Shown piece after piece: positions 2,815 through 8,949 of a stretch of DNA of 53,058 nt (position 1 is the first letter of the stretch; each line of letters starts with the position of its first letter). Location: positions 1 through 53,058 of IMG/VR virus record IMGVR_UViG_3300035190_000328. One strand, given 5' to 3'. Under the pieces are notes generated by a model that saw only the letters and a list, made by a program, of their open reading frames with translations, did not search any database and was not told the origin of the DNA. The position numbers were made by a program, and so were the translations under genes. The stretch is from a virus.

Positions 2815-2948
2815 TTATTAACGTAAACTTTCCTAATCGTATTGCAATCAGATTAATAGTATCTGTATTACTATTCCTTTAATATTCATACAAGAAATTA
2901 TGGTATTATCATATCCAGTAGGTTAAGCTGGGTTTTTATTTAAACTAT

Positions 2949-3326
2949 GGGGACGATGGGAAAGCCCTAATTAGTTAATTCAGCAAGCAAGTAACGCATT
3001 GTCTATTAATGTGTGCGTTTAATAAATTAGTAGATAACTTACAGATGGCAACACTGTAAACACTGAGGATATAATGTCCTTCAAGACTTCTATTACTTCT
3101 CCACTACAGGTAGTTCGTGAACCTGAAATGGTAGAAATGAAGCTTGCAGCTTAATTAACGAAAAACTCCAAATTTAAGGGAATATTAGAGTATAAATATT
3201 AGAACCCTTCCATTTCTTTATATGGTTAGATTTAGATATTTTGTATAGTTAGAAAACTATTCTAAACTTGTAGAAAACTGATTATTAATTAATTAGGATA
3301 CGAGGGTTCAACTCCCTCCGTCTCCA
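2949..3326 (+). ncRNA. ssrA: tmRNA (transfer-messenger RNA)
   Basis: Rescues stalled ribosomes by acting first as a tRNA and then as a short mRNA. The ends pair as an acceptor (GGGGACG 2949-2955 with CGTCTCC 3319-3325, then A3326). The T arm is perfect (GAGGG, TTCAACT, CCCTC at 3302-3318). A long helix 2 joins the tRNA-like part to the body (CCTAATTAGTTAATTCAG 2966-2983 with 3278-3297). An H-type pseudoknot PK1 follows: AACGCA/TGCGTT (2993-2998/3014-3019) and CTATTAAT/ATTAGTAG (3003-3010/3026-3033). From GGC at 3047, with A and G at -4 and -3 as in E. coli, an open frame of 35 codons runs to EMKLAA and TAA 3152-3154. Further hairpins lie at 3176-3209 and 3247-3268. The 378-nt length is close to the 363 nt of E. 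coli. The usual GGATTCGAC D-loop sequence is absent. Confidence 0.85.
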
Positions 3327-3347
3327 CTAATGCCAAGGCGTAGTTAG

Positions 3348-3408
3348 GACTAGTCAATGTAGCTCTTTGAGTGTAAAAGTAGGCATATCCTACTGCTAAA
3401 GACTAGTT
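3348..3408 (+). ncRNA. stem-loop with nested hairpin after the tmRNA
   Basis: GACTAGTC (3348-3355) pairs with GACTAGTT (3401-3408), and inside lies a perfect AGTAGG/CCTACT hairpin (3378-3383/3389-3394). It begins about 20 nt after the tmRNA 3' end, so it could be a processing signal for the tmRNA precursor or another member of the structured RNA group. Confidence 0.4.
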
Positions 3409-3442
3409 TATTGGCTACTATTTATTAATTTAAAATAACTTT

Positions 3443-8872: not shown

Positions 8873-8945
8873 CTTCCTGTAGTTCAATTGGATAGAATAT
8901 GGGATTTCTAATCCTATGATAGAGGATCGTAGCCTCTCAGGAAGA
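8873..8945 (+). tRNA. tRNA-Arg (anticodon TCT)
   Basis: Full cloverleaf: acceptor CTTCCTG (8873-8879) with CAGGAAG (8938-8944), discriminator A8945. The D arm has GG in the loop. Anticodon stem TGGGA/TCCTA encloses loop TTTCTAA with anticodon TCT at 8907-8909. T stem is AGAGG/CCTCT with a somewhat unusual loop (ATCGTAG). CCA is not encoded. It reads AGA, the dominant arginine codon in this AT-rich genome, so it likely supports translation of phage mRNA. Confidence 0.9.
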
Positions 8946-8949
8946 CTAA

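Follow-up and report, generated by a model that had tools for sequence, protein, structure and literature searches.

A tmRNA gene on a crAss-like phage fragment

The window, the whole 53,058-nt stretch analyzed here, is a 53-kb virus record in which end repeats are absent. Its plus strand carries a tmRNA gene at positions 2949 to 3326, without an encoded 3' CCA. The Rfam model RF00023 matches at 2949 to 3329 (+) over its full length (model positions 1 to 374) with 54.3 bits, which lies above the gathering cut-off of 47 bits and is modest compared with the 100 or more bits of typical tmRNAs, and the RNA fold gives z = -3.96 against shuffles. The tmRNA of another viral contig, L143, is 80% identical and scores 76 bits. 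ARAGORN, a check that the earlier note had proposed together with Infernal, did not report a tmRNA in the window; this program misses or mis-starts some phage tmRNAs. With the Infernal match, the identification of a tmRNA made in that note holds, and a phage (crAss-like) tmRNA is confirmed.

The acceptor stem, T arm, and discriminator base of an alanyl tRNA-like domain are present in the sequence and the covariance model alignment. The 5' strand of the acceptor stem, GGGGACG (2949 to 2955), forms 7 bp with CGTCTCC (3319 to 3325), including a G3-U pair that is, as judged from sequence, an alanine determinant, and is followed by the discriminator A at 3326. The T arm reads GAGGG-TTCAACT-CCCTC (3302 to 3318), and in helix 2 the segment CAAG (2988 to 2991) pairs with CTTG (3267 to 3270) in place of the Rfam consensus CATG/CATG. 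The paired acceptor ends, T arm, helix 2, and two-stem pseudoknot 1 (PK1) described earlier were thus all seen again on direct reading. The region of PK2 to PK4 aligns poorly to the model, and inspection by eye yields one candidate downstream pseudoknot at 3165 to 3209 (ACTC 3165 to 3168 with GAGT 3188 to 3191, and AAGGG 3176 to 3180 with CCCTT 3205 to 3209). A promoter scan did no better than shuffles. Just 3' of the gene, at 3338 to 3416, the arms ACTAGTC...GACTAGT of an inverted repeat enclose a GTAGG/CCTAC hairpin; this element may be a terminator or a further small RNA.

The DNA polymerase of the window shows 33 to 40% identity to those of gut crAss phages and 50% identity to that of Leptolyngbya phage Lbo-JY46, and is accompanied by primase, helicase, and exonuclease families. 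On this crAss-type replication module (DNA polymerase, primase, helicase) in the 53-kb fragment, we assign the tmRNA carrier to the crAss-like phages (Crassvirales). Its host is probably a member of the Bacteroidota, because the tmRNA 3' signature and the crAss-like genes both point there.

The gene sits in a stretch of approximate extent 2821 to 3440 (+) that is missing from the nearest relatives. Two of these, G001 (94 kb) and G004 (96 kb), match both flanks, but the interval between these flanks is about 45 bp long, compared with about 620 bp in the window; no tmRNA was found elsewhere in these two contigs, and tmRNA searches in the near relatives G001 to G007 were negative. Since the closest relatives are without the gene, we regard the tmRNA as an accessory cassette. 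A tRNA-Arg(TCT) at 8873 to 8946 of the window is retained in G001, G004, and G005, relatives without the tmRNA. SmpB was absent from all 25 records searched (the window, itself only a 53-kb fragment, and 24 carriers), and host SmpB is therefore presumed; the rest of the phage genome, beyond this fragment, may encode SmpB or a partner.

Pseudoknot 1 and the resume codon

PK1 spans 2993 to 3034 (+) and consists of stem 1 (AACGCA, 2993 to 2998, with TGCGTT, 3014 to 3019) and stem 2 (TCTATTAAT, 3002 to 3010, with ATTAGTAGA, 3026 to 3034). Both stems are backed by covariation across five viral tmRNAs (those of the window, L143, L091, L139, and L149), in which 93% of cells are paired and five pairs are altered on both sides. 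The covariation score is 0.387, compared with 0.134 in shuffles (reached in 0 of 500), and falls to 0.05 or less with the partner slid. A 12-nt linker leads from PK1 to GGC 3047, the codon on which the RF00023 alignment also sets the model's resume codon. The base at -4 of this codon, A3043, is A in 16 of the 16 viral tmRNAs examined; in Escherichia coli A86 occupies the same place and is the main frame determinant (PMC2481249), a frame-setting role that A3043 may share. The invariant A at -4 and the covarying PK1 together identify GGC 3047 as the resume codon, in agreement with the earlier argument from this base and the PK1-like distance.

A tag frame conserved as protein

From GGC 3047 the tag frame GNTVNTEDIMSFKTSITSPLQVVREPEMVEMKLAA runs for 35 codons to TAA at 3152 to 3154 (3047 to 3154, +), with the layout GNTVNT-EDIMSFKTSIT-...-EMKLAA; the tag-derived peptide is EDIMSIPTSLTRG. 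Within it we observe a virus-conserved module, EDIMSFKTSIT (3065 to 3097), common to the tags of L143, L163, L142, L016, L249, and others, and a C-terminal degron end, KLAA (3140 to 3151; hydrophobic-Ala-Ala), with similar C-terminal character in relatives.

The frame had been defended on the grounds that chance openness is small in such DNA. This argument is weak: 9% of shuffles of the 105-nt tag frame remain open, and openness alone was rejected as proof of a tag. Comparative evidence is what we take as decisive for the frame. In viral relatives, the residues G-N-x-x-N-x-E-D-(I/M)-M-S recur at an equivalent position behind PK1 while their codons differ mostly by synonymous substitutions, and the comparison with other frames that had been called for finds the conservation in the tag frame. 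In six sequences gathered without the tag peptide, pN/pS over EDxMS is 0.13 in the tag frame, whereas the two alternative frames give 1.5 and 4.5; over the 11-codon core it is 0.30 versus 0.60 and 2.6. For the tail of the AEDIMS subfamily, which lies outside the search pattern, the values are 0.34 versus 2.1 and 1.2. In addition, the module serines are encoded by TCN in some viruses and by AGY in others, a switch that needs more than one change. The low in-frame pN/pS and the two kinds of serine codon argue that the frame is kept as protein; by these sequence comparisons it is under purifying selection (pN/pS 0.13 to 0.34 across relatives), and it ends in hydrophobic/Ala residues and a stop (KLAA-TAA). 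The alternative 8-codon frame from 3033 (DNLQMATL) was rejected. Its first two bases lie inside PK1, and its equivalent reads GNYKWKHL in L143 and a longer unrelated frame in L091, so the earlier judgment that it fits less well stands.

Tags of 8 to 35 residues are on record (PMC8012679), the commonest length being 10 (PMC11915505). The tag thus reaches the top of the published range without going beyond it, a correction to the earlier note, and 35 residues by itself is not new. Nor are tmRNA genes as rare in phages as the earlier note held, since they are frequent on IMG/VR contigs.

A tag module shared by unrelated phages

Viral tmRNAs were gathered by a T-arm/helix-2 pattern blind to the tag, or by DNA similarity, and a tag core is common to these sequences collected without use of the tag. 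It takes the form ED(I/M)MS(I/F)xT(S/F) inside the tmRNA tag, which the window's EDIMSFKTS fits; the window's module reads FK at the position of the IP seen in others. Its carriers include jumbo phages of one lineage, with contigs of up to 365 kb, two or more further phage fragments, and a 735-kb huge phage. The tag reads GNIYNSEDMMSIPTFITRVAQEAKPEVLEVA in L143, ANNFSEDMMSFSTSVTRG...AELEMAA in L142 and L144, AEDIMSIPTSLTRG..AVFAR.AELAIAA in L016 and L054, and GDYKMNAEDMMSIPTSLTGKVATESFVEDLVLA in the 735-kb phage (L249, LR756501), while in L163 (GNTYNPEDIMSIPTSLNTAPVVALEEVELLAA) the start of the window's tag is matched too. The Met of EDIM is invariant, with a GAGGA-like stretch upstream in some members.

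A degenerate codon pattern for the tag core, run on IMG/VR, hits 30 places, and the same tag frame follows in 28 of them; ARAGORN calls a tmRNA at 17 of these 28, and Rfam confirms two of the rest (L160 and L165). The strict EDIMSIPTS codon pattern accounts for 26 of the 30 matches, on 26 viral contigs, and has no match in the GTDB genome contigs (84,980 species). A looser motif pattern is likewise found in none of 395 genomes from the phylum of a Flavobacteriaceae genome. Among 33 ARAGORN tags sampled in that phylum, 32 have 9 to 10 residues and the remaining one, with 14, looks mis-called; bacterial tmRNAs with the phage 3' signature are mostly from Bacteroidota and carry short tags (GENNYALAA/GETSYAFAA). 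The window tag is three to four times the length of the tags of likely hosts. In INPHARED, a DNA search with the window tmRNA gave no match, and one with L143 retrieved the 735-kb phage and phages of Cellulophaga. Open reading frames of 100 or more amino acids in the carriers examined do not contain the EDIMS motif, which argues that the tag is no copy of those proteins. EDIMSIPTS does not occur in the literature searched, nor does the phage tmRNA literature searched describe a conserved viral tag motif; a conserved, virus-restricted tag module in unrelated phages appears undescribed in this literature, which covered few subscription papers.

Eleven EDIMS carriers form one related large-phage group by shared proteins (contigs up to 321 to 365 kb), with which the L143 contig has few proteins in common. 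The window shares no protein at E ≤ 1e-3 with the EDIMS carriers examined. Its DNA polymerase, primase, and helicase do have counterparts in G028 to G030. The tmRNAs of these three (L091, L140, and L141) have tags of a second family, 39 to 42 residues long, with the pattern GN(T/V)..(N)EVG.(I/V)AD... and the C terminus LELAA or LELV. These EVG tags, carried by crAss-like relatives, exceed the published range of 8 to 35 residues. Pairwise BLASTP of the window tag against that of L091 gave no match, so we treat the EVG family as a tag in its own right, borne by an RNA body that is related. EVG tags also occur in L146 and L150, and in L312 from codon 10 on, with ARAGORN missing or mis-starting them. 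Since tmRNAs of the same clade (L091, L139, L140, and L149) have other long tags and no EDIMS module, phage tmRNAs can do without it.

In a tree built from tmRNA bodies with the tag removed, the window pairs with L143 (support, 91), and the clade around this pair includes the 735-kb phage and the tmRNAs with EVG tags but not the jumbo group. The EDIMS module would thus sit on two kinds of tmRNA body, in two viral clades. Transfer, recombination, and ancestral presence with loss or convergence are alike compatible with this tree, the weak support of its deep nodes leaving transfer and loss or convergence inseparable. Further motif groups with tags of 31 to 33 residues (e.g., FAPSVEEADAxL..FGYADADA.LAA) are seen in tmRNAs of the viral contigs L021, L063, L073, L120, L126, and L117. 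At L137:3500-3790 we observe a jumbo-group-like tmRNA in which the 3' side of PK1, the resume codon, and the EDIMS part seem deleted, leaving ...ELAMVA-stop; this is perhaps a decayed gene.

A proposed bipartite tag and its alternatives

We consider it likely that the locus encodes a working phage tmRNA with a bipartite, virus-specific tag, made up of a C-terminal degron and a conserved internal module for an adaptor, protease, or host factor. Host AlaRS would charge the RNA with alanine and host SmpB would bind it; in the infected cell, the RNA would then enter ribosomes that have stalled because their mRNA is broken or has been cut by a nuclease. Translation would resume at GGC 3047, adding Ala and the 35-residue tag, with release at TAA. 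The C-terminal LAA degron would then be read by ClpXP-type proteases of the host, and the ED(I/M)MS(I/F)xTS module would most likely bind an adaptor, a protease, or another conserved host factor, such that phage-rescued products are handled unlike those of host tmRNA with their 9- to 10-residue tags. The sequences show a tmRNA with a complete 5' half and tRNA-like domain, a tag frame under selection, its restriction to viruses in the searches made, and no SmpB in the records searched. Activity, host, protease, and module partner are inferences, with charging, SmpB delivery, resumption, release, and proteolysis through LAA drawn from established trans-translation. Counting against this reading are the FK of the window's module in place of IP, the other long tags in its body clade, the weak alignment of PK2 to PK4, and the fragmentary state of the genome. 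The N-terminal part of the E. coli tmRNA tag binds SspB, and by this analogy an adaptor- or protease-binding role for the module is the most likely one. That the long tag may recruit a different protease or partner had been suggested in the earlier note, and the conserved virus-only motif strengthens the suggestion. More tentatively, and on balance doubtfully, the module could be a virus-specific peptide signal passed among unrelated Bacteroidota phages that gives rescued chains a fate unlike that under host trans-translation, be it sequestration, protection, or a different protease or adaptor.

A simpler account, in which a working phage tmRNA has a long tag that serves solely as a degron, set on a longer spacer, and a motif owed to common descent without a dedicated partner, is in keeping with the retained C-terminal hydrophobic-A-A and with the other long tags of sister tmRNAs. 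It appears unlikely in view of the pN/pS of 0.13 over EDxMS, the double substitution between serine codons, and conservation at the residue level across two separate tmRNA body clades. We judge it very improbable that the stretch owes its conservation not to the tag but to RNA structure, or to an internal start at the Met of EDIM for a separate microprotein MS(I/F)xTS...: the invariant Met and its GAGGA-like stretch would suit such a start, but the E and D upstream of Met are conserved through synonymous change, the +1 and +2 frames show no such pattern, and the A at -4 and the PK1 spacing fit resumption upstream.

Scant credence goes to the idea that the RNA acts as a decoy, titrating SmpB of the host or occupying its ribosomes, a role that has been proposed for the tmRNA of mycobacteriophage DS6A (PMC4131195, PMC11915505). 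This precedent and the 25 records without a phage SmpB speak for it, yet the DS6A RNA has a tRNA-like domain only, without a tag frame, in contrast to the window's tmRNA with its complete PK1 and its complete tag, whose frame is under selection. Finally, the low model score and the nearest relatives without the gene might suggest a decaying gene or an assembly artifact, which we regard as hardly credible given that both flanks match relatives, PK1 covaries, the tag is conserved, and the tmRNA of L143 reaches 76 bits.

tmRNA tags are usually treated as short degrons. A long module in unrelated phages (crAss-like and 735-kb), with none in the bacteria searched, suggests that phages may have their own tagging code; if the reading as a signal is true, this would be a viral reprogramming of ribosome rescue.

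Comparison with known tmRNAs

Bacterial tmRNA (ssrA) of the Bacteroidota type resembles that of the window in its acceptor stem with G3-U, T arm, helix 2, PK1, A at -4, resume codon, LAA tag end, and 3' signature, and differs in its tag of 9 to 10 residues in sampled genomes, as opposed to 35, and in the EDIMS module, which the bacteria searched lack. Phage tmRNAs are known from Bacillus phage G and mycobacteriophages such as Bxz1 (PMC4131195). Huge phages have been reported to encode tmRNA together with SmpB (PMC7162821), whereas no SmpB was found in the window. The 735-kb phage LR756501 shares with the window an EDMMS tag, a PK1-like layout, and the A at -4, but belongs to another phage lineage and has a group I intron (RF00028, 96 bits; L249:3317-3548) directly after the start of the T loop.

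The Cellulophaga phages phi38:1 and Calle_1 (Pervagoviridae) also carry a tmRNA, here in cultured Bacteroidota phages, although their tag lacks the EDIMS module. ARAGORN starts this tag at Ala, giving 22 residues (L248 and L250); from sequence it is likely to have 30, GNNTNAVNAQIEANMEAVNAILNLEVAVGV, starting from a GGA with A at -4. Mass-spectrometry data of phi38:1-infected Cellulophaga baltica have been described (PMC13288928). The tmRNA is annotated in Calle_1 and unannotated in phi38:1, where a hypothetical open reading frame is called antisense over the copy.
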